From Flagellimonas hymeniacidonis (GTDB lineage Bacteria; Bacteroidota; Bacteroidia; Flavobacteriales; Flavobacteriaceae), in NCBI RefSeq assembly GCF_008040165.1, contig NZ_VRUR01000001.1:184150-248149 (forward strand): a DNA stretch of 64,000 bases. The letters run 5' to 3'. How positions within the stretch are numbered: position 1 is the first letter of the stretch; the number at the start of each line of letters is the position of its first letter. The position numbers were made by a program, and so were the translations under genes. Positions 8,093 to 25,503 of this stretch are shown here, in pieces. Under the pieces are notes generated by a model, which did no database searches, had not been told where the DNA came from, and was given only the letters and a program-made list of their open reading frames with translations.

Positions 8093-10717
8093 TTAAAAGA
8101 AAAACCTTAAAGTAGCATTTGGAGTAAAACCAAGGGATAACTGTTCTATTTGATTTAACTCCTGTGCACTTGTCTCCAAATTTTCATCTACTCGATAAAA
8201 AACAGATATTGGAATTTGTCTGCTGTACAAATTTTGAAATGACACTCCAAAAGTGCCTCGAAAATTGCTTGTATTGGAATTTCCAAACTTGTACAATAAC
8301 GAAGCATCCAATCGGTGGTAATTTGGCAATCTTTCACTATTAATCGCTCCAAAATCAATATCCCCTGTAACGATGCTAAAACTATCAACTGGGGTGAACG
8401 GTGTACCTGTTCTATATGTCCATCCCAAAGACAACTCCCAATTTTTCACATCCAAAGTATTGGATATTCTAAAATTATGGGTGACATCATTATTACCAGG
8501 AAAAGGATTAGTTTGTAATTCTTCAAAAGTGTACTCTACGTTATTATAGGTATATCCTAACCATACTCTATAATTTGCAATTTTTTTACGGAGCAATACG
8601 TCAACACCGAAAATATCGCTTTCACCTTGCGATAATTCTTCAGCGGCGTTGGTAAAGCCATTGGTAAAAGAGGTAAGCCCCTTTATATTCTTTACATAAC
8701 CATCAATATCAAAAGTCCAACCACCTGAATCGATTAAAAATCCACCAGAAAACTGTGTACTCTCCAAAATGGGTATTTCATTTCCATCCGAAAGTGTCCA
8801 AATATTGTTTTCCAGCCGAAGCTGAGTGTCTTCAAATTCAATTAATTGACTTACTGGTTGATACCTTCTTTCCGCAGTACCTTTAATTCGAAAAATAGGG
8901 GAAAGGGGATATTCAATGTTAATCCGTGGTTCCAAATAAAGTTTATCCACCAAAGAATAATGAGATCCACGTACGCCCAAACTTACCAGCCCTTTGTTTT
9001 GTGGTCTAAAAATATATTCCCCATAGACTGAGCTAGACTGATTGGTATTGTTCCGTTCCACATTAAAATCGCGTGTTTCTGGAGGCAATGGAATTTCATC
9101 GTCATCATCAGGGTCAATATCACCATCTCCTGCCTCATCACGAAACAATTCAAAGAACACATCCAAATTAGAATACTGATATCCCAATTTTACCTCATGT
9201 TGGGGCAAGAACTCCAAGGCAAGGTTTACATCTAAACCATAGTCTTCAACTGTATTTTTCCTAAAATTTTGCTCTTCTTCTATAAAATTCTCACTTATTA
9301 CATTATTATACTCGCTATCAAAACTTGAATAGTAGCCTTTTATCGAGTGTCTTAATTTTCCAAATTTGGTGCCATTCCAATTAAAACTTGCTCCTTTGTT
9401 CTCGATAATCAATCGATCCTGCGTGATATCTTCATCGTCTCGAGAAGAAAAGTCCAGATCATTATTGGTCAAAAGTCCGCTAATCGAAATGTTATCATTT
9501 TTGGAAGGTTGAATGAGCAACTTGGCACTTGTATCATAGAAAAAGAATGTATCTCCCCCTAAAACTTCGCTGAAATCATCATCATCATCTTCAATGACCT
9601 GACCTGTAACATCTGTCACTACTTTAGTATTTTGAAATACTTTTTCCGACAAAGCGGTATATGTAGGTGTTTCCAAAATATCTGTATAAGACCTTCTTGC
9701 CGATAAAATTAAAGCCACCTGCTTCCCTAGGGCAGCTTTTAAAAATCCATCGGCATGGGTTCCGTTAATGCCTATGCCAGCATTGGTTTTAGTTGGAACA
9801 TTGGCATCTGTTGTAATATCTATAACTCCAGAAATACGGTCTCCATATTCTGGGCTTGCCCCTCCCTTAAAAACCTTGGCGCTTTCTGTTACATACGGGT
9901 TGAATGCAGAGATCATTCCAAAGAAATGTCCTGTATTGTACATTTTAATGCCATCGTAGTAGATTAGATTTTGATCAGGTGATCCACCTCGAATCTGTAT
10001 TCCAGAAGCAGATTCATCCAAACTGGTAATCCCTGGAATCAATTGAATGCTTTGAAAAACATCTGGTTCCACCAAACCAGGTAAAATACCTTGCTCTGCA
10101 TTATTCAAGGTAAAAGATCCATCTGAATTTTTATCAATTCCTTTAGTAAGATATGCCAATACCACTACTTCCCGCAATGACTGTGCCTCGGGAAATAAAA
10201 TGATGTTTTTACAATCATCGACACCATATTCAGAAGCTTTTATTACCTTATCTGAAAACCCCACATATTGAATGAGAATATTCTGATCTTGTTCTATTTC
10301 TTGGAGCTGAAAAAAACCATTTTCATCACTTGTAACTCCAACGATTGTGCCAGCAATCAAAATTGTGGCAAATGGCAATGGAGTGCTTGTATCACTATCA
10401 AAGAGATACCCACAAATATCCATCTTGGTAGGTGGAACACTTATAATAACTTGATTTTCGGATACTTTTTCAAAGTTTAATCCTGTTTGGTTAGCAAGTT
10501 CTGATAATAGTTGAGATTCGTTCAAATTGGAACCTGACAATGTTATGGTCTTATCAACTATTGAAGCTTCCGCATAGGAAAAAGTGAGTGTGGTTTTAGA
10601 TTCTAAATCCAACAGCACTTCTTTTAATGGAGTGACTGCATACTCAATAGTAACCATCTGTTGAGAAAAAGCTTCTATGGAAATCAATAACAGACATAAG
10701 TACAGTAGCTTTTTCAT
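8093..10717 (-). CDS. TonB-dependent receptor with STN signalling domain
   Basis: This is an 874-residue outer-membrane receptor. In order: signal peptide (1-19); STN (secretin/TonB N-terminal) domain at about 22-92; a carboxypeptidase-regulatory-like beta domain at about 100-185 (ICGYLFDSDTSTPLPFATIL); a plug domain with IRGGSPDQNLIYYDGIKMYN and KGGASPEYGDRISGVIDI at about 240-300; then the barrel, ending in a Phe-rich terminus (TLRFFF). The STN domain marks a receptor that passes an outside signal to a periplasmic anti-sigma factor. This fits the fecR gene 9 bp upstream and the ECF sigma gene beyond it. It probably imports and senses the same ligand, which is not identifiable from sequence. 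Confidence 0.93.
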   Translation of the reverse strand: MKKLLYLCLLLISIEAFSQQMVTIEYAVTPLKEVLLDLESKTTLTFSYAEASIVDKTITLSGSNLNESQLLSELANQTGLNFEKVSENQVIISVPPTKMDICGYLFDSDTSTPLPFATILIAGTIVGVTSDENGFFQLQEIEQDQNILIQYVGFSDKVIKASEYGVDDCKNIILFPEAQSLREVVVLAYLTKGIDKNSDGSFTLNNAEQGILPGLVEPDVFQSIQLIPGITSLDESASGIQIRGGSPDQNLIYYDGIKMYNTGHFFGMISAFNPYVTESAKVFKGGASPEYGDRISGVIDITTDANVPTKTNAGIGINGTHADGFLKAALGKQVALILSARRSYTDILETPTYTALSEKVFQNTKVVTDVTGQVIEDDDDDFSEVLGGDTFFFYDTSAKLLIQPSKNDNISISGLLTNNDLDFSSRDDEDITQDRLIIENKGASFNWNGTKFGKLRHSIKGYYSSFDSEYNNVISENFIEEEQNFRKNTVEDYGLDVNLALEFLPQHEVKLGYQYSNLDVFFELFRDEAGDGDIDPDDDDEIPLPPETRDFNVERNNTNQSSSVYGEYIFRPQNKGLVSLGVRGSHYSLVDKLYLEPRINIEYPLSPIFRIKGTAERRYQPVSQLIEFEDTQLRLENNIWTLSDGNEIPILESTQFSGGFLIDSGGWTFDIDGYVKNIKGLTSFTNGFTNAAEELSQGESDIFGVDVLLRKKIANYRVWLGYTYNNVEYTFEELQTNPFPGNNDVTHNFRISNTLDVKNWELSLGWTYRTGTPFTPVDSFSIVTGDIDFGAINSERLPNYHRLDASLLYKFGNSNTSNFRGTFGVSFQNLYSRQIPISVFYRVDENLETSAQELNQIEQLSLGFTPNATLRFFF

Positions 10718-10726
10718 TTGGGTGCT

Positions 10727-11644
10727 TTATGGGGTTTTAAGCAGTATAGTTTTCTCATCTATAGACACTTCATAAGCTATGCCCATAGGTACAAATACAG
10801 TCTTTAATGCTATCTCAAGGTTATTGTGAACAAAACTACCTGTAAAACGATCAGCATCATTTGCAAGGTTATGTTGTATAGTTATTCCGTATTGAGCTTC
10901 CAGCTCTTGTATCACCTCAACCAAAACAACATTGGAAAAAACACTTGTTCCTTGAGTCCAAGAAGGGAAGTCTTCTTTTAGTTTCTCTCTTTCGATTACG
11001 CCAGCGGTATTCAAACTTATACCATCTCCATGTTCCAAAATAGCTTCCTCATTGGGCTTACCAGTTTCAAACTTCACTTTACCTTCATAACAAGCCAATG
11101 AAAAGTTTGCACTCCGTGCCCTTACATTAAACTCTGTTCCGAGCACTGAAACCGTTCCGGATTCAGTTTCAACTTTAAAACCATCTCCTTTTTCTACCTT
11201 AAAAAAAGCTTCTCCTTTAAGGTTGACCGATTTATCATTCTTCCAAAAAAAACGATTATGGGTAAGTTTGGAATCAGCATTTAATTGAACCGAAGAACCA
11301 TCTGGAAGATTAACCGCCAATTGCTCTCCAAAAGACGTGGAATAGCTTATTTCATTAAAGAAAATACCAACAATCAATGCTAAAGAGGCTGCAATTCCTA
11401 TTGCATAGTATAAAGGTTTAAGACGGATTACTTTGCCTTTGGATTCCTTATTTTCAATTTGAGCTAGGACTTTATCTTTTAAGACAGAGGTATCAAAGTT
11501 TGGTTTTTTAAACCGCTCCATCCCCTGGCTTATCCGCTGATACTCTAAAAACTCCGTAGAGTTTTCAAACTCCTTCTGTTCTTCAGGAGTGAGTTCACCT
11601 GCCAACCATCTGGCTAATATTCTATCGTCTTTATCTTCAAACAT
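10727..11644 (-). CDS. FecR family anti-sigma factor
   Basis: From the ATG at 11644 the protein has 305 residues, starting MFEDKDDRILARWLAGELT, the usual cytoplasmic N-terminal helix that holds the sigma factor. One membrane helix follows (LYYAIGIAASLALIVGIFF). The periplasmic FecR domain comes next (LPDGSSVQLNADSKLTHN, GTEFNVRA), and a C-terminal DUF4974-type domain ends it. An upstream ATG at 11674 would extend over the inferred -10 element, so the shorter start is preferred. FecR receives the signal from the STN domain of the TonB receptor and regulates the ECF sigma factor. It is transcribed with the receptor gene from its own promoter placed right after the sigma gene stop codon. Confidence 0.92.
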   Translation of the reverse strand: MFEDKDDRILARWLAGELTPEEQKEFENSTEFLEYQRISQGMERFKKPNFDTSVLKDKVLAQIENKESKGKVIRLKPLYYAIGIAASLALIVGIFFNEISYSTSFGEQLAVNLPDGSSVQLNADSKLTHNRFFWKNDKSVNLKGEAFFKVEKGDGFKVETESGTVSVLGTEFNVRARSANFSLACYEGKVKFETGKPNEEAILEHGDGISLNTAGVIEREKLKEDFPSWTQGTSVFSNVVLVEVIQELEAQYGITIQHNLANDADRFTGSFVHNNLEIALKTVFVPMGIAYEVSIDEKTILLKTP

Positions 11645-11662
11645 TTTTATACATTCAATGAG

Positions 11663-11694
11663 AGAACAGGTCAATTGGCATACACCCTACCCCC
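11663..11694 (-). promoter_or_regulatory. Predicted ECF sigma promoter for fecR-receptor unit
   Basis: On the minus strand GGGGGTAGGGT (11684-11694) is followed after exactly 14 bases by CTGTTCT (11663-11669). The same arrangement occurs at 12226-12257 and 14808-14839. It starts at the base next to the sigma gene stop codon and lies 18 bp before the fecR ATG. Two blocks at fixed spacing fit -35 and -10 elements; their use by the sigma factor encoded here is inference. Confidence 0.75.
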
Positions 11695-12207
11695 TTATAT
11701 ATTTTTAACTGTTTTTCTCATTTTAACCAAAGCTTTGTGCATACGTTTTTCCACGGCCTTTTGGGAAACACCTAACATGTCTGCTATTTCTCTGTACGTT
11801 TTTTTATCAATACGGTTTAGCAGGAAAACTTCGCGTTGTCCTTCTGGCAAAGCATTTATTGCTCCCTGTAATTTTTCCATAAATTCATTCTCCTCAATTT
11901 TATACTCAGGAGTTTCATTATCTGCGGTGCTTCTGGGAATCTTGGAATATTCTAAAACCACTTTTTTATGTGCAACCTGATTGTAAAAAGCATTCTTGGC
12001 CACAGTGTACAAAAAGGCCTTTGCTTTCTCAACTAATACTTTTTTACAGTTGTTCCAGAGTTTTATAAAAGCTTCTTGGGCCAAATCTTCAGCCTGTTGT
12101 ATATCACCACACTGATAATACAGATAGTTACAAAGGGTCTGGGAATTAAGATCAAAAATTTGATTGAAAGTTTTCTGGTTGCAAACTGAGTTGTCAGTAC
12201 TGGCCAT
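11695..12207 (-). CDS. FecI-like ECF sigma factor
   Basis: This is a 170-residue sigma factor. Region 2 is NYLYYQCGDIQQAEDLAQEA followed by FIKLWNN. Region 4 is LPEGQREVFLLNRIDKKTYR followed by EIADMLGVSQKAVEKRMHKAL, with a helix-turn-helix. It is of the FecI type used in cell-surface signalling, and fecR and an STN-type TonB receptor follow it. It is divergent from the transglutaminase-like gene, whose start is 77 bp away and preceded by the same motif that stands before fecR. No copy of the motif faces this gene itself, so it may not be self-activated. Confidence 0.93.
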   Translation of the reverse strand: MASTDNSVCNQKTFNQIFDLNSQTLCNYLYYQCGDIQQAEDLAQEAFIKLWNNCKKVLVEKAKAFLYTVAKNAFYNQVAHKKVVLEYSKIPRSTADNETPEYKIEENEFMEKLQGAINALPEGQREVFLLNRIDKKTYREIADMLGVSQKAVEKRMHKALVKMRKTVKNI

Positions 12208-12225
12208 TAAGTATTCTTTTTGGGA

Positions 12226-12257
12226 GGGGGTGGGGTAAAATATGGATTAGCTGTTCT
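12226..12257 (+). promoter_or_regulatory. Predicted ECF sigma promoter for transglutaminase-ligase unit
   Basis: GGGGGTGGGGT (12226-12236), 14 bases, CTGTTCT (12251-12257). It matches the copies before fecR and before the barrel gene in both blocks and in spacing. It lies 27 bp before the ATG at 12285. Confidence 0.75.
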
Positions 12258-12284
12258 ATATCAAAAATAGCAAAATATATAGTT

Positions 12285-13862
12285 ATGAACGCACCCTTCA
12301 ACTTAAGAACAGTAATAGTGAGCATCTTGGCCCTAGTAATGATCTCACTTGTGGTAAAGCTGATTCCACTAAGTAAAAACATAGATGACTTTTATGCAGA
12401 AGAAATGTATCAAGTCACATACAAATATTTTTTGAAGACCGGTGAAAAGAAGACTTTTTTGAAAACCTACTTACCAAAAAACAATGGTCATCAGCGTATT
12501 AGTGATGAAAAATTTGAAAAAAAACCATATTGGACCTTTCAAAAACAAGCCGTTGGAAATAATATGAAAGGTGTTTGGTTTACAGGTAGGGAAAATTCAT
12601 ATGAAAGCATTGATTATCAATTCACTTTTGAAGGAAAATCCAAAATTTTTGCCGTACCAAATGTTTTTGATAAATCCAATGGGATTCATGAGAGGTATTT
12701 AAGGGAAAGTGAGTTTATCCAATCCAATCACAATCGCATTGTTAAAAAAGCAAAAGAACTATCTGAAAACGCCAACAACAATAGACAAGAAATTCAAAGC
12801 ATATTTGATTTTGTCAATAAGATTCCATCAGCTCCAATCATAAACCTTACCGATGCAGTTACGGTTTTAGATCAAAATAGAGCTTCTTGCAATGGAAAAA
12901 GCAGATTACTAGTGGCTTTGGCTCGAAATCTAGGGTATCCCGCAAGAATAAAAGGGGGTATCATACTAGAAGAAGCCAACAAAAGAACTTCACATGCATG
13001 GGCAGAAATCCATATTAACAATACATGGGTTCCTTTTGATGCGCTAAACGGTCATTTTGCCTACTTACCTTCAAATTACCTAGAACTTTATGCAGGTGAT
13101 GAATTTTTAATTGCGCACACTCCAAACATTCAATTGGATTATATCTACGAAATAAGCAAGCAACAAAAAGTACCTTTTCTAAATATGAACGCTGATGAAG
13201 TAAGTAAAATATCAATGGTCTCTCTTTGGGGGTTGGTTGAAAACAACATTATCTCCATAGAAGCTTTGTTACTTTTATTAATGCTGCCCATTGGTGGACT
13301 ATTGGTCGCGTTTCTAAGAAATGTGGTAGGACTGAGGACTTTTGGAGTGTTCCTTCCTGTGTTGATTGCTTTTGCGTTATTGGAAACTGGTTTTCTTACC
13401 GGTATACTCCTTTTCATTTTTCTAATCCTTTTCGTAGGTATCATTTCAAGACCATTTAACAACCTGGGACTCCTACATACCCCCAAACTTGTCATCTCAC
13501 TTACATTAATGGTTTTGGTAATGACCTTAGGTTCTTTTATTGGTTCATTGACCGAAGTTACTTGGTTAACGGCACTCACCTTTTTTCCTACCATAATCCT
13601 CACCATATCTGCCGAACGATTTTCTACTTTAATTATAGAAGATGGATTCCAGAAAGCAACAGGAACGCTTTTTCAAACTCTTATTGCGGTAAGTTTTTGC
13701 TATTTCATGTTGTCCAGCCAATGGTTGTCATCTATCCTAATTCTATTTCCAGAAATATTATTGGTAGTCATTGTACTATCAATGCTCTTGGGAAAATACA
13801 TTGGTTTACGTTGGACAGAATTGCTACGTTTTAGACCTCTATTGAACCTTAAAACCGTATAA
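12285..13862 (+). CDS. Transglutaminase-like domain fused to seven-helix membrane domain
   Basis: The 525-residue protein has an N-terminal membrane helix (8-28) and an extracytoplasmic domain to about residue 300. Seven membrane helices follow (about 315-510, for example VISLTLMVLVMTLGSFIGSL). The outside domain contains a transglutaminase/protease-like core: RASCNGKSRLLVALARNLGY, TSHAWAEIHINNTWVPFDAL. The Cys (residue 202), His (237) and Asp (252) of the catalytic triad are all present. The overall plan is that of the family called inactive transglutaminase fused to 7 TM helices, known to sit next to RimK-like ATP-grasp ligases. The next gene, 2 bp downstream, is such a ligase. It may cleave or cross-link amide bonds on the periplasmic side; the substrate is unknown. 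Confidence 0.85.
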   Translation: MNAPFNLRTVIVSILALVMISLVVKLIPLSKNIDDFYAEEMYQVTYKYFLKTGEKKTFLKTYLPKNNGHQRISDEKFEKKPYWTFQKQAVGNNMKGVWFTGRENSYESIDYQFTFEGKSKIFAVPNVFDKSNGIHERYLRESEFIQSNHNRIVKKAKELSENANNNRQEIQSIFDFVNKIPSAPIINLTDAVTVLDQNRASCNGKSRLLVALARNLGYPARIKGGIILEEANKRTSHAWAEIHINNTWVPFDALNGHFAYLPSNYLELYAGDEFLIAHTPNIQLDYIYEISKQQKVPFLNMNADEVSKISMVSLWGLVENNIISIEALLLLLMLPIGGLLVAFLRNVVGLRTFGVFLPVLIAFALLETGFLTGILLFIFLILFVGIISRPFNNLGLLHTPKLVISLTLMVLVMTLGSFIGSLTEVTWLTALTFFPTIILTISAERFSTLIIEDGFQKATGTLFQTLIAVSFCYFMLSSQWLSSILILFPEILLVVIVLSMLLGKYIGLRWTELLRFRPLLNLKTV

Positions 13863-13864
13863 TC

Positions 13865-14746
13865 ATGATTCAGAAAATTTTCAACATAAAGAACACTGCT
13901 GGTGTCATGGGATTAAATCGAAGAAACCTAGAACTCATTTATCCCCATAACAAAAGAGCAAATTATAGTTTAGCTGATGATAAGGTGAAAACAAAGGAGA
14001 TTCTTCATCAAAACCATATAGCATGCGCAGAAACTTATACCGTTATCACTAAAGTCAGTGAAATCAAGAAAAAATGGGCTCTGTGCAAAAGCAAAAATGC
14101 AATGGCAGTCAAACCTGCCAATGGATGCGGAGGCGGGGGTATAAAAATCCTTAAAAAAACCAATGAAGGAGAATGGAAAAGTGGAGAAAAGGTAATCTCT
14201 GAAGCACAGATTTTTCAACATATTACGAGTATTGTTTCAGGTTTGTTCTCCATGAATTCTTCAGATAGCTGCTTAATTGAAGAATGTATAGTACCCCATC
14301 CCTTTTTTGCTGAAATCTATGATAAAGGCGTACCAGATTTTAGGGTCATAACCCTTAAAGGGCAACCTATTATGGGAATGTTACGAATGCCAACCTCAAA
14401 ATCTGGAGGTAAAGCAAACCTTCATCAAAAAGGAGTAGGTATTGGTGTAGACCTAGAAAAAGGGACCTTAACCCAAGTTTATGATGGAAAACAATATATG
14501 GACCATCACCCTGACAATCCAAACAAAGTGAATGGCAAGCCTATTCCCTATTGGGATGAAATGATCACCCTATCCATAAAAACGGCAAAAGCCTTCCCTC
14601 TAGACTACCTCGGTATTGATCTTGTAATTGATGCTGTTAAAGGGCCACAAATCATGGAGGTCAATGTACGTCCAGGATTGGGCATACAACTAGTGAACCA
14701 ATGCGGCCTACAAAAGGCTATAAAAGAACGGTGCGAAATGGTCTAA
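13865..14746 (+). CDS. RimK-related ATP-grasp ligase (alpha-L-glutamate ligase-like)
   Basis: This is a 293-residue protein of the ATP-grasp fold. The nucleotide-binding part has AMAVKPANGCGGGGIKIL (Lys and Gly-rich loop) and an ECIVPHPFFAEIYDKGVPDF segment with RVITLKGQPIMGMLRMPT. The metal-binding end is LGIDLVIDAVKGPQIMEVNV followed by RPGL, with Asp, Glu and Asn ligands. Members of this group are predicted to form amide bonds by ATP-driven carboxylate activation. The typical partner is the transglutaminase/7TM protein, whose stop is 2 bp upstream here. In many bacteria a retropepsin-like protease gene completes the set; none is seen. A strong terminator follows. Confidence 0.88.
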   Translation: MIQKIFNIKNTAGVMGLNRRNLELIYPHNKRANYSLADDKVKTKEILHQNHIACAETYTVITKVSEIKKKWALCKSKNAMAVKPANGCGGGGIKILKKTNEGEWKSGEKVISEAQIFQHITSIVSGLFSMNSSDSCLIEECIVPHPFFAEIYDKGVPDFRVITLKGQPIMGMLRMPTSKSGGKANLHQKGVGIGVDLEKGTLTQVYDGKQYMDHHPDNPNKVNGKPIPYWDEMITLSIKTAKAFPLDYLGIDLVIDAVKGPQIMEVNVRPGLGIQLVNQCGLQKAIKERCEMV

Positions 14747-14770
14747 AAAGTCCATTTGTTTTTTGATTGA

Positions 14771-14801
14771 AAATCCAGCTTTAAAAAGCTGGATTTTTTT
14801 G
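14771..14801 (+). terminator. Rho-independent terminator
   Basis: A 10-bp perfect stem (14771-14780 with 14787-14796; AAATCCAGCT and its complement) has a 6-base loop and a T run to 14800. It ends the transglutaminase-ligase unit. Confidence 0.9.
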
Positions 14802-14807
14802 TGGTCA

Positions 14808-14839
14808 GGGGGTGGGGTAAACAAGAACAAACCTGTTCT
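14808..14839 (+). promoter_or_regulatory. Predicted ECF sigma promoter for the barrel gene
   Basis: GGGGGTGGGGT (14808-14818), 14 bases, CTGTTCT (14833-14839): third copy of the motif. It begins 7 bp after the preceding terminator and ends 42 bp before the ATG at 14882, so the barrel gene has its own start site under the same control. Confidence 0.75.
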
Positions 14840-14881: not shown

Positions 14882-16027
14882 ATGAAAGCAAAAATAAAAA
14901 TGTTGATAGCACTACTGGTATTCCTAATGATATCGTATACCATCTCAGCACAAGAAAGCAAACAAAATTTTAAGGTAGGCACCTATGCAGGTTATGAATA
15001 CAATTATTTTAAAAGTCCGACCGAAGTCCAACAAGACACTGTTCTATTTACGGAAAGTGACCTTATCTCCAGTAGCTCTTATAAAGATATTTTTGCAAAT
15101 TATGACTATACCACCAAATGGAAAGGAAATAGACTTCGCCTTTCCGCCAGTCCATCTACTCGTTTATTCTATGACAACTTTGAGGATAGTTATTGGAGTT
15201 TGACCGCAAATGTAAAGTATGATCGTGAACTCAGTGAAAAGACCAAGTTTTTAGCACAACTTTCTTTCCGAAGAATGAACCGGGAAGGGCTAGATGGCGC
15301 ACAGGATGTTCTGGTCAATCCGCTTGGATATACAAATTACGGAGTTAGAACAGGTTTAGGGATAGCACCGATACAAAAAAACAAGACTACAATACTGGCA
15401 TTTTATAACTTTAAAGATTTTGATGCTTTTGGAATTCGTGATTTACAATTTGACGAATTTGGCCTTCAACTAAATACCAGACAACAGTTTAGAGTAAATA
15501 AGTTACGCCATGCTTATGGAATAAACTCCTATATCAAAAAGCGCTTATACGACACCTTTAATGCTTCTGATGTAATAAGCTCGGGAGCGCGCGATTGGAG
15601 TTATGTAAAGGCAACTGCCTATTACGAACTTCCTATCAGTAAAAATTTAGAAATTGAGCCGAGTTATACTTATTATACTCGTATAGATAATATGGACAAG
15701 CGCTCGGGTTTTACGCAAACTGGACCTGCACTGGGAATAGTTTTTGACAATGATATAACTTCGGTACGTTCTTCTCTAAAATATTTGACCAGAAATTACA
15801 CCACCTTAGAAGCACGCGATAACCTTGGTTTAATTGGAGAGAAAATTAAGTATCAATACATGGACATTGCTATTAATGCAGAACATAGATTGGGTAGTAG
15901 CGGTTTTTCACTAATCGCAGAAGCCTATAGTAGAGTAAGAACCACAAACTATACAGATATTGATGCCCGTTCGTTTAGAGGGTACACTAATCAGTATGCT
16001 GGGGTTGGTCTAAGATGGCAACTATAA
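14882..16027 (+). CDS. Predicted outer-membrane beta-barrel protein
   Basis: From the ATG at 14882 the product has 381 residues with a cleavable signal peptide (MLIALLVFLMISYTISAQ). A longer frame from 14801 would run through the promoter motif, so it is rejected. The rest shows alternating strands rich in Tyr, Arg and Phe: TKWKGNRLRLSASPSTRLFY, TKFLAQLSFRRMNREG, AYGINSYIKKRLYDT, and a C-terminal strand YAGVGLRWQL. This is typical of an outer-membrane barrel, but I do not recognise the family. By promoter and position it belongs with the sigma/transglutaminase/ligase system and could be the exit or display channel for its product. Confidence 0.75.
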   Translation: MKAKIKMLIALLVFLMISYTISAQESKQNFKVGTYAGYEYNYFKSPTEVQQDTVLFTESDLISSSSYKDIFANYDYTTKWKGNRLRLSASPSTRLFYDNFEDSYWSLTANVKYDRELSEKTKFLAQLSFRRMNREGLDGAQDVLVNPLGYTNYGVRTGLGIAPIQKNKTTILAFYNFKDFDAFGIRDLQFDEFGLQLNTRQQFRVNKLRHAYGINSYIKKRLYDTFNASDVISSGARDWSYVKATAYYELPISKNLEIEPSYTYYTRIDNMDKRSGFTQTGPALGIVFDNDITSVRSSLKYLTRNYTTLEARDNLGLIGEKIKYQYMDIAINAEHRLGSSGFSLIAEAYSRVRTTNYTDIDARSFRGYTNQYAGVGLRWQL

Positions 16028-20565: not shown

Positions 20566-23500
20566 TTATTGTTCTTCTTCTATTGGGACACCTATTACTG
20601 GTCTTGCTTCTGGAATGTTTAATGGCACTACTCCCTTGTTTTCTTTCCTCATAATATCTTGAATTACCTCATTACCTCCTTTTTCCATTATTTTTAAAGC
20701 TGCTTTAAATGCATCAGTATCTACTTTAGCCTTTTCAGTTGCTCTCAATGCTTTTTTACTCGCTTGCCCTAAAATTATTCCTGGTAATCTTTCCTTTGCA
20801 ATATTCCCTAAAGATTTTCCATCAAAAAAATCAACTGTTATATTTATTCCTGTTCCTGTCTTACTAATTCCCTCTCCTAATGCAACTCCAGGGCCGAATC
20901 CTACTGCCGCACTTAATATTGCTAATCCATCGCCTCCTTCTTCCATAACCGTACCTGCTATTTGAGCTCCACCTTTTGTTGCTTCCGCAGTTCCTTCAGC
21001 AACTTCACCCATAGCTTCTGACCTATCCGCTAATCTTTCCTGTTGAATTTCTTCTTTTCTTGCTGCGTTTAAGGTCTTACCAGATTCTATTCTTCGATTT
21101 AATTCTTTACCTGTCTCATTATTTAAAAGGTCGCCAGCACCTTGTTTCATTCGGTCCATTCCAGCTTTGAATCTATCAAATAATTCCGCTCCTTCAAGCT
21201 CAACTCCCATACCGAGTTTGTTCTCTTGGAAAGCAAAGGTAGAATTATAGACGTAATCGTCAGCCAAGGGGTCTATCTGCCAGAACCTCCCGATTGCTGG
21301 GTCGCTTATCCTGAACTTCCATTCGTGAATATTCAATTCCAAATCCTCGGTAAATTCCTGACCTTGGTACGTATTCAAGTTGTTCTCTGCACCATAGGAG
21401 ATATTGTTATATCCCTTATGCTCCAGTCCTAATGGATAATAGTTCTGCTCCCTTCGTATCTCGAAAGATGCAATGATATTCCCATCGTTATTATCATCCG
21501 CATAGGTCAGTCTTGTGTTACCCCATATATCGACATATCTATAAACATACTGCCACCCATTGCCGTCAGGCTCTATATATCCTTCGAGTTGGGTAATCTG
21601 TTTAAGGTTCCCATTTTCGTACACGAACGACCCTGCATAATCAGTTGTAGTCCCATTGCTACTGATTTTACGAAGTTTCTTCCTATCAGAAGAATAAATA
21701 TAGTCAATGGTTCCTGTATTATTGCCACTACTGACTGTAATCTTGGTAGGCATGTTGAGATGATTGTACTCGATACCATTCACCGCTATACCTTTATTCA
21801 AGTCGGATGTCATATTTCCATTGGCATCGTAGGTGTACTCCGTGGCCTGATCTGTACCATCCTTAAACCCATAGGTATCGTTGCCGTTGTCCAATACCTT
21901 GGTCAATTTGTTTCCGCTATCATAGGTGTATACAAGGTTGTCCATGGTGCCAAAGGTTGTAGCAGCACTATTGGTATGGCCATTCCTTACCAAGGTGGTA
22001 ATGTTCCCCATCTTGTCATAATCCACATTGGTAAGGCTATAGTTGGTATTGCTTCCCATGGCATTCTCTATCCGGTTGAGGGCATCATATCCATACCGGT
22101 ACCAACGCAGGGCATTGTCATTGGCCGTTTTCCATTCGGTCTCGGCGATGTTCCCATTGTACAGCGCGGTACCGCCATGATCTGCCGTATTGTAATTGAT
22201 ATCAAAGGCAAAGAGGTCGTTCCCCAAATTGGCAGGGTCGTTGATCTGTTTTAACCAACCCCGTACATTGTATTTGTAATCCACGGCCTGCAAACTTCCG
22301 CCAACGGTTTTCTTCTTTAATTGCCCCAGTTCATCATATTCGTTCCGTACCAGTTCCTCGGTATGGCCCCCTATGGTCTGTTCCAGTTTTACCAACCTTG
22401 CCGCCTGATCATAGGTAAAATCATCTATGGTCACTATAGGTGCATTGGCCCCTTTGGTATGGGTAGTTTTGCTCTGCAGTACCTTCCCGGCAAAATCCAA
22501 TTTGGTCTCCACAATGTCAGTTGTATTGAGATAATTGTTCTTACTTGCCGTATATATAGGCCGCCCCTTAACATCATAACCTGTAATGGTGGTAATCCAA
22601 TTAGTGGTTCCCAGCACCCTTACCTTGCTTACTGTAGGGAGTCCATGGGTATTGGTCGTGGCTGCCTGCCCCAATACTGTTGTGGGAACGGCAAGTCCAT
22701 CTTCGTCCTCATAGTTATCATAATAATTAATGGTAAACACCTCATTATAGCTTGTGGGGTATGCATCATTGCTATAGTATACATTTGTGCCTGCCAAGTT
22801 CAAGGCGGTGCCACGTTTTTCTTCAAAAGTATCCGTCGTGTTATCAGCGGCATTTTGAAGTGCAGCTCTTGTGCTGCTTGTATTGTCATCCCTTCCGGTG
22901 TAGATGACCCTTCCAAAGGCATCATATTTAGTAAAGAGCCATTGGTTCAATGCCTTTAAATTTGCATCCCTGGTCATTATAGGTCTGTTCAGTTTGTCAT
23001 AGACAATTTCCTCCCATCCTTTTCCAGGCAATTTTTTCTCCACCAAACGGTTACGGTGGTCATATTTATATTGATAGCACAACTCGCTAAGTTCGGTGCT
23101 GCTTACATTGTCCACGGTCACTTTTGGCGGGAGCACATAGGTGAGGTTGCCAAAATCATCGTACACATAATAAGTGTCGTGCGCACCATTGTTATAGGTC
23201 CTTTTTAACAATACCTGCCCCAATTTATCGGTAAATTCCTCGGTACTATGGTCCGTCCCGGAGGTATGGTTCTCATCATAGGTTACTTTTTTATACAGGG
23301 CATTGGCGGGATAGGTGCCATGGTTGACCAACTGTGGCGCTTCTGTATTTCCACCACTAAAGGAAATGGAAAAGTGTCGCACCTCATTGGCATCGTTGGT
23401 GTCATACCCAAACTCTATTTCATGTCCCCCGCCCATGCGCCAATCGTAACCTGGGGCCGCTTGTTTTAACACTCGGTTCAACGGGGAGGCCTCAAATTGG

Positions 23501-25503
23501 GTCTCTGAATAGGGGTTGGGAGTGCCGCTGTTGATATCGCCGGGATATGTATTGATATAATGATCATTGGTCGCCGTTTTGGAACTGCTTCTATAGGTTC
23601 CCAGCCCATTGTACTCCATATAGGGCAAATATTGTTTTGATGCACGGCCATAATCGTCATATTCCACATGGGTGACAATGTCCTTGGGCTTCCCATCATC
23701 AAAGAGTTTCTGCAAGGGAAGCTCACTGCCATCGACCACTTCCACTTTAGGGTCATAAAAGTATTGGCGTACGTTCACATCGGTACAATAATAAAGGTAG
23801 CTCCTAAAACGTGAATTGGTCGTATCCGAACGCCATTTGAACTCCGTACCATCAAGGACCTTATTGCCCTGAAGGTCATAGACCCCACTTACCCCTGTAT
23901 CGGTACTGCCATGGGTATATGGATGGATGATGCCCACCAAGAGGTACCATTCTTCAAGCTGTGGAGGGTCTCCTACCCAAAAATAAGGGTTACCATTTGC
24001 ACCTCCGCCTAAGTTATCCACGTTCTGGGTTCCATGATAACTATGTCCATTATTACTGTGGTGACGACGCACCCAAACGGTATACCTATAGGTCTTTGTC
24101 TTGTCCACATTAAAATAATCGGTGTTCCAGCCACCATCTGAACCGCTATCTGGCTTGTTGCCGCATTCCCAGACCAAGTTATTGTTGCCAAAAGGGTCTG
24201 GTGCCCAAACCCTAGCATTTTCCGATACTTCCCCATTCCTATTGAAGAAGGCTGTACCTCCAGTACCTTCGGACCAATCCATGGTCCAACCTGGTGCAAT
24301 ATTGGGTGTCTGCGCGGATGTCTTTCCCGAGCCCCGGACAAAGACGTTCTGTTTTGTCCTGCCAAGGCCATCAAAATAGGCAACGCTCTCAATGGCCTCT
24401 GTCTCTGAAGCATCCTGATAGATTCGTGTGGAAACATAGTTCTCATCACTGGGTGTTATGAAGATGGCCTCACAACCATTTCCACTACCTGGTTCATTTG
24501 GGCATTGATCCGTATTGTTATCCGCATATCCCAATCGTTTGAAACTGGCATACAGGGTGGTGTTACCATCCCCAAAACCATCTCCGTCCACATCGCTGTA
24601 ATATGTCTGTGGGGTCAAATTGGTCACCAGTACGGTTGTATCGTCATGGTCGGAGCTGTTGGCCACATAACCTGATGGTTGGCTGCAATCCGAAGTCGTC
24701 GAGGAGGAATTTCCATAGCCATCCCCATCGGTATCGGCATACCAAGTTGTGGGTTGTGTTATTGAATAGGTAACCGTACGTGAAGCCCCCCAACATCCAC
24801 TGCTACTTCGTCCTCGCAGGTAATAGGTGCTTCCGCTGGTACGGGTAACGCTACTATTTGAGTTGGAAGTACTTGTTCCCGAGGAACTACTTTGCCAATA
24901 CCATGTTATTCCCGAAGGTGGATTGGACCTTGTAAGGACTGAACTGCCGCAGTTGTTTGTTACTGAAGGGGTGGAAGGTGTTCCTGGCGCCGAGTTTATG
25001 GTATAGTTCACTGTTCTTGCCGGGCCCCAACATCCTCCGGAATTTGCCCTAGCTTTAATATAATATACTGTGCCGCTTGTTCTTGTTATGGAGTTTGATG
25101 AATTTGAAGTACTGGTTCCAGAGGGACTGCTCTGCCAATAAAGTGTAAGCGCACCTGAATGCGAGGGTTTTGTTAGTATTGTGCTTCCACAATTATTTGT
25201 GATGCTTGGGGCTCCTGGAATACTAATTGAATCTTCATCGACCTGTCCATCACAGTCATTGTCCACACCATCGCATAATTCTGGGGCTCCAGGATATGTA
25301 GTATCACCGGTATATTGATTATCATTACAATCCCCTCCTCGAGAGACATACCCAGGTGGAGGATAGCTCCCTGTAATGGTTTGGGTTCCTCCCCAAGTAT
25401 CCCCATCGACGTCCCTGTAAAAAGTTTGATTCCATTGCGAATATCCAAAGCTTTGAACTAATACAACTATCAAAATAGTTAGACATATGTATGATTTTTT
25501 CAT
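20566..25503 (-). CDS. Large RHS-repeat protein with Ig-like and metal-binding N-terminal modules
   Basis: The 1645-residue protein has a signal peptide (1-22), Asp-rich DVDGD and DGDGYGN motifs, and a MopE-like ELCDGVDNDCDGQVDE motif near residue 80. Two similar Ig-like units of about 75 residues follow (each with TNNCGS, WYWQSS or LYWQSS, and a GCWG end). A DUF6443-type segment (VAYFDGLGRTKQNVFVRGSG) begins near 380, then many RHS/YD repeats. The RHS core ends with IGRFWQIDPLADDYVYNS near 1410. The last 215 residues are Ala/Gly-rich with hydrophobic stretches; no toxin family is recognised. DNA for this tip (20566-21200) is clearly more AT-rich than the repeat region. It is likely a surface or secreted toxin-carrier-type protein. 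It starts 5 bp after the preceding RHS gene. Confidence 0.88.
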   Translation of the reverse strand: MKKSYICLTILIVVLVQSFGYSQWNQTFYRDVDGDTWGGTQTITGSYPPPGYVSRGGDCNDNQYTGDTTYPGAPELCDGVDNDCDGQVDEDSISIPGAPSITNNCGSTILTKPSHSGALTLYWQSSPSGTSTSNSSNSITRTSGTVYYIKARANSGGCWGPARTVNYTINSAPGTPSTPSVTNNCGSSVLTRSNPPSGITWYWQSSSSGTSTSNSNSSVTRTSGSTYYLRGRSSSGCWGASRTVTYSITQPTTWYADTDGDGYGNSSSTTSDCSQPSGYVANSSDHDDTTVLVTNLTPQTYYSDVDGDGFGDGNTTLYASFKRLGYADNNTDQCPNEPGSGNGCEAIFITPSDENYVSTRIYQDASETEAIESVAYFDGLGRTKQNVFVRGSGKTSAQTPNIAPGWTMDWSEGTGGTAFFNRNGEVSENARVWAPDPFGNNNLVWECGNKPDSGSDGGWNTDYFNVDKTKTYRYTVWVRRHHSNNGHSYHGTQNVDNLGGGANGNPYFWVGDPPQLEEWYLLVGIIHPYTHGSTDTGVSGVYDLQGNKVLDGTEFKWRSDTTNSRFRSYLYYCTDVNVRQYFYDPKVEVVDGSELPLQKLFDDGKPKDIVTHVEYDDYGRASKQYLPYMEYNGLGTYRSSSKTATNDHYINTYPGDINSGTPNPYSETQFEASPLNRVLKQAAPGYDWRMGGGHEIEFGYDTNDANEVRHFSISFSGGNTEAPQLVNHGTYPANALYKKVTYDENHTSGTDHSTEEFTDKLGQVLLKRTYNNGAHDTYYVYDDFGNLTYVLPPKVTVDNVSSTELSELCYQYKYDHRNRLVEKKLPGKGWEEIVYDKLNRPIMTRDANLKALNQWLFTKYDAFGRVIYTGRDDNTSSTRAALQNAADNTTDTFEEKRGTALNLAGTNVYYSNDAYPTSYNEVFTINYYDNYEDEDGLAVPTTVLGQAATTNTHGLPTVSKVRVLGTTNWITTITGYDVKGRPIYTASKNNYLNTTDIVETKLDFAGKVLQSKTTHTKGANAPIVTIDDFTYDQAARLVKLEQTIGGHTEELVRNEYDELGQLKKKTVGGSLQAVDYKYNVRGWLKQINDPANLGNDLFAFDINYNTADHGGTALYNGNIAETEWKTANDNALRWYRYGYDALNRIENAMGSNTNYSLTNVDYDKMGNITTLVRNGHTNSAATTFGTMDNLVYTYDSGNKLTKVLDNGNDTYGFKDGTDQATEYTYDANGNMTSDLNKGIAVNGIEYNHLNMPTKITVSSGNNTGTIDYIYSSDRKKLRKISSNGTTTDYAGSFVYENGNLKQITQLEGYIEPDGNGWQYVYRYVDIWGNTRLTYADDNNDGNIIASFEIRREQNYYPLGLEHKGYNNISYGAENNLNTYQGQEFTEDLELNIHEWKFRISDPAIGRFWQIDPLADDYVYNSTFAFQENKLGMGVELEGAELFDRFKAGMDRMKQGAGDLLNNETGKELNRRIESGKTLNAARKEEIQQERLADRSEAMGEVAEGTAEATKGGAQIAGTVMEEGGDGLAILSAAVGFGPGVALGEGISKTGTGINITVDFFDGKSLGNIAKERLPGIILGQASKKALRATEKAKVDTDAFKAALKIMEKGGNEVIQDIMRKENKGVVPLNIPEARPVIGVPIEEEQ

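Follow-up and report, generated by a model that had tools for sequence, protein, structure and literature searches.

A sigma factor locus and its bipartite motif

A stretch of 64,000 nucleotides of the Flagellimonas hymeniacidonis genome (contig NZ_VRUR01000001.1, positions 184,150 to 248,149 of the forward strand; hereafter the window) carries on its minus strand a gene for an extracytoplasmic function (ECF) sigma factor of 170 residues (11695..12207, domains Sigma70_r2 and r4_2), followed by genes for a FecR-type anti-sigma factor (fecR, 10727..11644, FecR and FecR_C) and a TonB-dependent receptor (8093..10717, Plug and CarbopepD_reg_2), the latter with a weak match to the STN signalling domain (E 0.012) that falls below the cut-off. 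Divergent from the sigma gene, on the plus strand, lie the genes for a transglutaminase-like domain joined to seven transmembrane (7TM) helices (12285..13862, RloB-like, PF14402 and PF01841), an ATP-grasp ligase (13865..14746, RloC-like, PF14397) and a predicted outer-membrane barrel (14882..16027). An earlier note on this DNA had described three copies of a motif, GGGGGTRGGGT and CTGTTCT separated by 14 bases, each 18-42 base pairs (bp) before a start codon and outside coding sequence, and we recovered all three without a mismatch. Copy 1 (11663..11694, minus strand, hexamer TGTTCT at 11663-11668) starts immediately past the sigma stop codon and precedes the fecR-receptor operon, copy 2 (12226..12257, plus strand, hexamer at 12252-12257) precedes the transglutaminase-7TM/ATP-grasp operon, and copy 3 (14808..14839, plus strand), a lineage-specific extra, precedes the barrel gene. 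On the sequence evidence these copies are very probably promoters that depend on the adjacent ECF sigma factor.

The distances from the motif to the start codon are 18 bases for fecR (ATG 11644), 27 for the transglutaminase gene (ATG 12285) and 42 for the barrel gene (ATG 14882). The open reading frame (ORF) list begins fecR at a TTG (11674) that overlaps the motif; we took ATG 11644 as the start because the orthologues also use that ATG. All three copies are non-coding, which rules out a coding origin of the motif. Chance repeats are ruled out by shuffling together with a genome-wide search: with up to three mismatches allowed, 0.06 matches are expected per shuffle of the window and none of 100 shuffles reached three, and the genome-wide pattern search proposed in the earlier note (3,887,983 bases, four contigs; exact, spacers of 10-18) yielded the trio of the window and no further exact match, against none for the reversed control. 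At fixed spacing and up to three mismatches there was one extra match (three mismatches, on another contig) against two for the reversed control. The short pattern GTRGGGTN16GTTNT is unspecific by itself, with 13 genomic matches against nine for its reversed control; short-pattern matches at L197, L198 and L201 resemble distant targets and are to be read against that same control.

Matched pairs in related loci

In a set of 397 Flavobacteriaceae genomes, 12 contain the relaxed pattern GGGGTRGGGTN13-15TGTTCT and 16 the transglutaminase protein (at 1e-30). Nine of the 12 pattern genomes (that of the window and eight others) have the pattern at the boundary between the sigma and transglutaminase genes, and in one (G056) it precedes the divergent gene at a related sigma locus; the matches at L012 (G325), which precedes a calcium-repeat-like protein, and at L013 (G355), with no clear gene, are taken up below. 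All 10 Flavobacteriaceae loci with the sigma gene next to the operon have both core sites, with at most two mismatches to the relaxed pattern, and three of the 10 have the pre-barrel site (the window, L035 and L042, with 0, 2 and 3 mismatches, respectively).

To follow the sites further we used a sigma-protein scan of 84,980 species genomes, taking the best 80 of 116 relatives, some of which overlap with the Flavobacteriaceae set. Together with the window this gives 81 ECF loci, in each of which we defined a region U, upstream of the sigma gene towards the divergent gene, and a region D, after the sigma stop codon. A motif-free comparison of U with D reached 16-17 of 17 matches in 41 of 80 loci, against one of 240 mononucleotide shuffles. 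An expectation-maximisation motif seeded with a window-like consensus settled on NNGGTAGGGT, a 15-bp spacer and NGTTNT; at a site threshold score of at least 7 it occurs in 147 of 162 regions, against three reversed and five reverse-complement control regions. Of the 81 loci, 71 have the divergent-side site, 76 the one that follows the sigma stop codon, and 70 both. The conservation before orthologous genes on which the earlier note had made its proposal depend is therefore found within the family as well as across these 81 loci. The sites have the make-up of ECF promoters, namely two elements at a fixed spacing (15 bp) before target genes that include the sigma factor's own cluster.

The wider set also modifies the description of the motif. 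Its 11-base G-rich block is a clade-specific version of a broader grammar, GGTAGGGT / N15 / NGTTNT: the extension to GGG at both sites occurs in a single clade only, in 17 of its 19 sigma rows, and it is not supported as an independently co-varying trait. Likewise, of the proposed three-copy regulon the two core copies hold, and the pre-barrel copy lies outside the conserved core. Additional sites scoring at least 15 number 28 in 80 loci, 18 of them fitting the clusters: six before the barrel gene (among 41 loci that have one), 10 downstream of the transglutaminase gene and ahead of the ATP-grasp gene (in nine Aquimarina-type loci and in L083), and two at L154 that bear that locus's own CGTT. 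The other 10 are elsewhere or unassigned, at least one of them being intragenic (L082, inside the transglutaminase gene).

The -10 element differs in some loci and usually does so at both sites together. Besides TGTT we found GGTT (six Aquimarina-type rows; L094/L095), TGTC (the second Kordia locus, three rows), GATT (L130, L143) and CGTT (L154). In 67 of 70 loci U and D share the first -10 base, against a mean of 49 and a maximum of 56 in 500 re-pairings, and they share the second and fourth bases in every one of the 70 (means of 66 and 64 on re-pairing). By parsimony the first base changed six times in U and five times in D. Other searches brought in 14 more sigma loci with pairs matched within the locus; 11 were recognised by their scores at both sites, three by eye (L075, L077 and L078, with differing -35 elements). 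These loci add further forms of the code: TAGGAA (second locus of L071 and L073), ATAGGGT with TGTC (L068, L072) and TCAGGA (L077, L078). Mutual-information candidates for the sigma residues that set specificity follow the tree, and no conclusion is drawn from them.

In the genome of the window there are nine FecR_C matches; a scan of eight of these loci (L209 left out) plus four larger stretches showed a pair at the window locus and at one paralogous locus only. This paralogue (L067, contig 2, 130000-145500) is a sigma/FecR/receptor locus with its own pair, AAGTAGGGTTTTTT..TTGTTTT and AAGTAGGGTTTTTT..TTGTTAT. The divergent target of L067, like that of L130, L133, L149 and L154, is either lipoprotein-like or a surface protein with repeats; the one at L130 weakly matches the zinc peptidase family PF15890, below the cut-off. 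L083 (Ancylomarina) and L087 (a Prolixibacteraceae bin) carry the whole cluster with sigma identities of 78 and 71% and are nested among Flavobacteriaceae rows on the tree, probably through horizontal transfer or as mis-binned contigs. Beyond the family the transglutaminase protein (at 1e-50) was found in four of 395 other class-wide genomes, and no sigma gene or motif was found within the short loci given for these four.

It is conceivable that an ordinary transcription factor binds the sites as its operators and that housekeeping promoters close by have gone unseen. The G-rich half, GGGGGTGGGGT, resembles a short direct repeat, the assignment to the sigma factor rests on sequence, and the matches at L012 and L013 are orphans. 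In such a model, however, there is little reason for two blocks that both vary between loci to keep a fixed 15-bp spacing and to lie 18-42 bases before start codons; their variation tracks the sigma locus, as expected for -35 and -10 elements, and the repeat half is absent in many loci (AAGGTAGGGT). We therefore consider operators improbable. Still far less credible is that the copies arose by recent duplication and have no function: the three are near identical in their two blocks, but the 14-base spacers between the blocks are unrelated among copies, and the blocks are retained where the sigma proteins have diverged to 53-91% identity. The earlier note's proposal of a compact regulon under the neighbouring ECF sigma factor remains the best reading of these data; promoter code and locus vary together.

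Several observations nevertheless weigh against sigma-dependent promoter pairs. L012 and L013 are exact matches to the relaxed window pattern whose short loci show no sigma gene of this kind, and the operon of G220 is preceded by a window-like site (two mismatches, best spacer 16), again with no such sigma gene alongside. One or both sites are missing from the scanned regions of 11 of the 81 loci (only D in six, only U in one, neither in L145, L147, L148 and L153), and at L084, L092 and L141 the first -10 bases of U and D do not match, the first two of these loci adjoining L094/L095 on the tree. Many of the loci are closely related, 26 rows forming a single Aquimarina clade, and well-supported branches hold just three independent switch pairs, with which a sign test cannot reach significance. 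Finally, class-wide TIGR02985 loci are mostly without a pair (148 genomes searched; 30 loci among the matches listed): among these 30, L162 has one clear pair, and L177 and L168 have a similar sequence on the fecR side only, by eye. A rule for all FecR-linked ECF sigma factors of the phylum is accordingly unsupported.

A proposed sigma gene promoter and a model of the locus

The earlier note was correct in stating that no copy of the motif faces the sigma gene. The sigma strand instead has TATTTTTG (12262..12269, minus strand), a -7-type element of the form TAnnTTTG, which is the -7 consensus of sigma-A in this phylum (PMC7366714, PMC9723704). This putative sigma-gene promoter shares bases with the region where transcription from copy 2 is expected to begin. 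Of the 44 compact loci, 37 carry TAnnTTTG on the sigma strand 4-5 bp past the divergent -10, and the other seven carry it there with one mismatch. Over all 71 loci with a U site, TAnnTTTG lies near the -10 in 39, against 6.6 expected from dinucleotide shuffles.

Since the -7 element falls where the ECF transcript is expected to start, binding of either polymerase should shut out the other, and we incline, with some caution, to the view that the ECF promoter occludes the promoter of the sigma gene. An alternative, to our mind rather unlikely, is that the TAnnTTTG-like sequence past the -10 is a conserved leader of the transglutaminase mRNA and not a sigma-gene promoter. It does fall within the predicted leader, leaders in this phylum are A-rich (PMC7366714), and no consistent -33 element was seen by eye. 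However, the two n positions vary (AA in 30, AC in three, TC in three and AT in one of the 37 loci) while CAAA and TA stay, and 21 of the 27 non-compact loci have TAnnTTTG within 150 bp upstream of the sigma gene (3.8 expected), between that gene and the ECF site and apart from the latter. At L080 (Flagellimonas sp. 389) the operon is absent from the examined stretch and the divergent ECF site is degraded, but TAnnTTTG and the fecR site survive, a natural experiment, if a single case, that separates both elements.

From this arrangement we infer how binding, start sites, signal relay and feedback might fit together. Each promoter would consist of a -35 element GGGGTRGGGT, a 15-bp spacer and a -10 element TGTTCT. 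On sensing its signal the TonB receptor would act via FecR to free the sigma factor, which would then transcribe the transglutaminase-7TM/ATP-grasp operon and, from the extra promoter, the barrel gene, as well as fecR and the receptor gene, that is, its own inhibitor and sensor. The sigma gene itself would be driven by the housekeeping-type promoter on the opposite strand, with its -7 element at the expected start of the ECF transcript. ECF holoenzyme at copy 2 would thus block sigma synthesis while FecR rises, and these two negative loops would give a self-limiting pulse. Taken as a whole, we regard this scheme of sigma-read promoters, receptor-FecR relay and two negative loops as the probable explanation of the locus.

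The pairing of an ECF sigma factor with a FecR-type anti-sigma factor relates the locus to systems of the FecI/FecR/FecA type, which likewise hold sigma factor, anti-sigma factor and TonB receptor in one locus and in which the sigma gene is not under its own promoter type, fecIR being 'not autoregulated' (PMC9249621). In contrast, fecR of the window lies behind its own site of the sigma factor's motif, and the target is an envelope operon. HasI/HasS shares with the model a sigma-dependent anti-sigma gene and a sigma gene that is not autoregulated, and differs in that the presumed sigma promoter of the window overlaps an ECF promoter on the opposite strand, an overlap that the accessible text of that source does not mention for HasI/HasS (PMC9249621). 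In Bacteroides thetaiotaomicron the non-canonical promoter PM2 (PMC7366714) and the TGTT -10 proposed for SigW-1 and SigH-1 (PMC12596196) resemble the motif in having two elements, at about -10 and about -30, with TGTT in the -10; PM2 is compared here by the text 'TGTT' alone, and a locus-matched pair or locus-specific code is not described in the accessible portions of these sources. SM6 of Flavobacterium psychrophilum is an ECF-type promoter from the same family, with the same sigma-A TAnnTTTG consensus, but its -10 has a CGT box and its targets include type IX secretion system genes (PMC9723704). ECF promoters are a known kind, and a TGTT -10 has been proposed before; what is new beyond the earlier note is the placement of TAnnTTTG, which predicts mutual occlusion. 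In the literature searched, which covered few subscription papers, no account was found for this phylum of promoter pairs matched within a locus, of switches in their code or of an interlocked promoter of the sigma gene.

Operons apart from the sigma gene and the envelope genes

In six of the 16 Flavobacteriaceae genomes with the transglutaminase protein (G220, G156, G336, G098, G313 and G146) the operon has no sigma gene adjoining it. G146, which is 29% identical and starts 108 bases from a contig end, was left out. The operon of G313 is preceded by TCAGGATTTTTT..GGTTGTT, the code of sigma locus L078 on another contig of the same genome, and that of G156 by TCAGGAGGTTTT..TTGTT, the code of L077, again in the same genome on another contig. 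A pattern written post hoc, after these sites had been seen (TCAGGANNTTTN10TTGTT), was searched in ten genomes: in G313 it matches twice at the sigma locus and once ahead of the operon, and in G156 it does the same and matches a fourth time where no ORF of at least 60 codons starts within 250 bp; G096 and G098 have one match each and the six others none, and the reversed control has none in all ten. The G098 operon has AGGCTGGGAG..AACTGTTATAT, which resembles the pair of L076 in the same genome; across the ten genomes a pattern fitted post hoc to these three sites finds just them in G098 and, in G220, a single site at a sigma locus. By eye the G336 operon shows TAnnTTTG alone, and no sigma relative was found in G336 at 1e-25. 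Of the five testable genomes, two therefore carry the code of another ECF sigma factor, one does so by a post hoc pattern, one has the housekeeping element only, and one (G220, above) contradicts the rule.

Taken together, we lean towards a picture in which the sigma factors of this clade of Bacteroidota ECF/FecR/TonB-receptor systems label their own loci with matched pairs, effector operons such as the transglutaminase/ATP-grasp/barrel operon have been rewired by code swaps, and, where the locus is compact, a sigma factor once active shuts down its own gene because the housekeeping promoter of that gene interlocks with the ECF promoter. If so, the specificity of a sigma factor could be read from its own locus, from the pair before the divergent target and fecR, and distant targets could be found with it, as where the sigma-locus code is recognised at the transglutaminase operon on another contig in G313 and G156; a promoter pair marking the sigma factor's own locus would allow a regulon to be predicted from sequence. 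B. thetaiotaomicron has 50 ECF sigma factors (PMC12596196), predicting ECF-controlled promoters has been called 'a challenging task' for which start-site data are required (PMC3878776), and as of 2020 a motif was known for EcfO of B. fragilis but for none of the ECF sigma factors of B. thetaiotaomicron (PMC7366714).

The transglutaminase and ATP-grasp genes are adjacent and match PF14402 and PF14397, respectively, above the cut-off, which corresponds to the RloB-like and RloC-like genes of an Rlo operon; the pair also matches NCBIfam NF052267 and TIGR02291, both below the model cut-offs. RloA, the retropepsin-like protease of the Rlo operon, presumably belongs to PF05618, and PF05618 was not found in the genome of the window. 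In an alignment of 54 flavobacterial-type proteins, with some genomes represented twice, the transglutaminase residues Cys202, His237 and Asp252 are retained in 53, 54 and 54, respectively, and because this apparent Cys-His-Asp triad is kept, the enzyme may be active here despite the Pfam name 'inactive'. As in the rlo operon of Pseudomonas aeruginosa, whose genes affect hypo-osmotic tolerance, an RloB-like 7TM transglutaminase gene and an RloC-like ATP-grasp gene stand together; unlike it, the operon of the window has a barrel gene in place of an RloA-type gene, and its transglutaminase keeps the triad, whereas RloB is called inactive (PMC12239564). In Shewanella vesiculosa, more vesicles are produced after disruption of an 'inactive transglutaminase' that has 7TM helices (PMC12096838), a phenotype that offers a lead for an envelope role of the operon.

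The protein of the third plus-strand gene matched no Pfam family. Its AlphaFold2 model, built with 30 orthologues (predicted local distance difference test score 85.9, predicted template modelling score 0.78), has 16 long strands after a signal helix, and among the 50 Foldseek matches listed were porins and FadL-like barrels with template modelling scores to the query of at most 0.46, from which no family was assigned. Elsewhere in the window, at 20566-25503 on the minus strand, an ORF of 1645 codons appears RHS/YD-repeat-like, by eye only.

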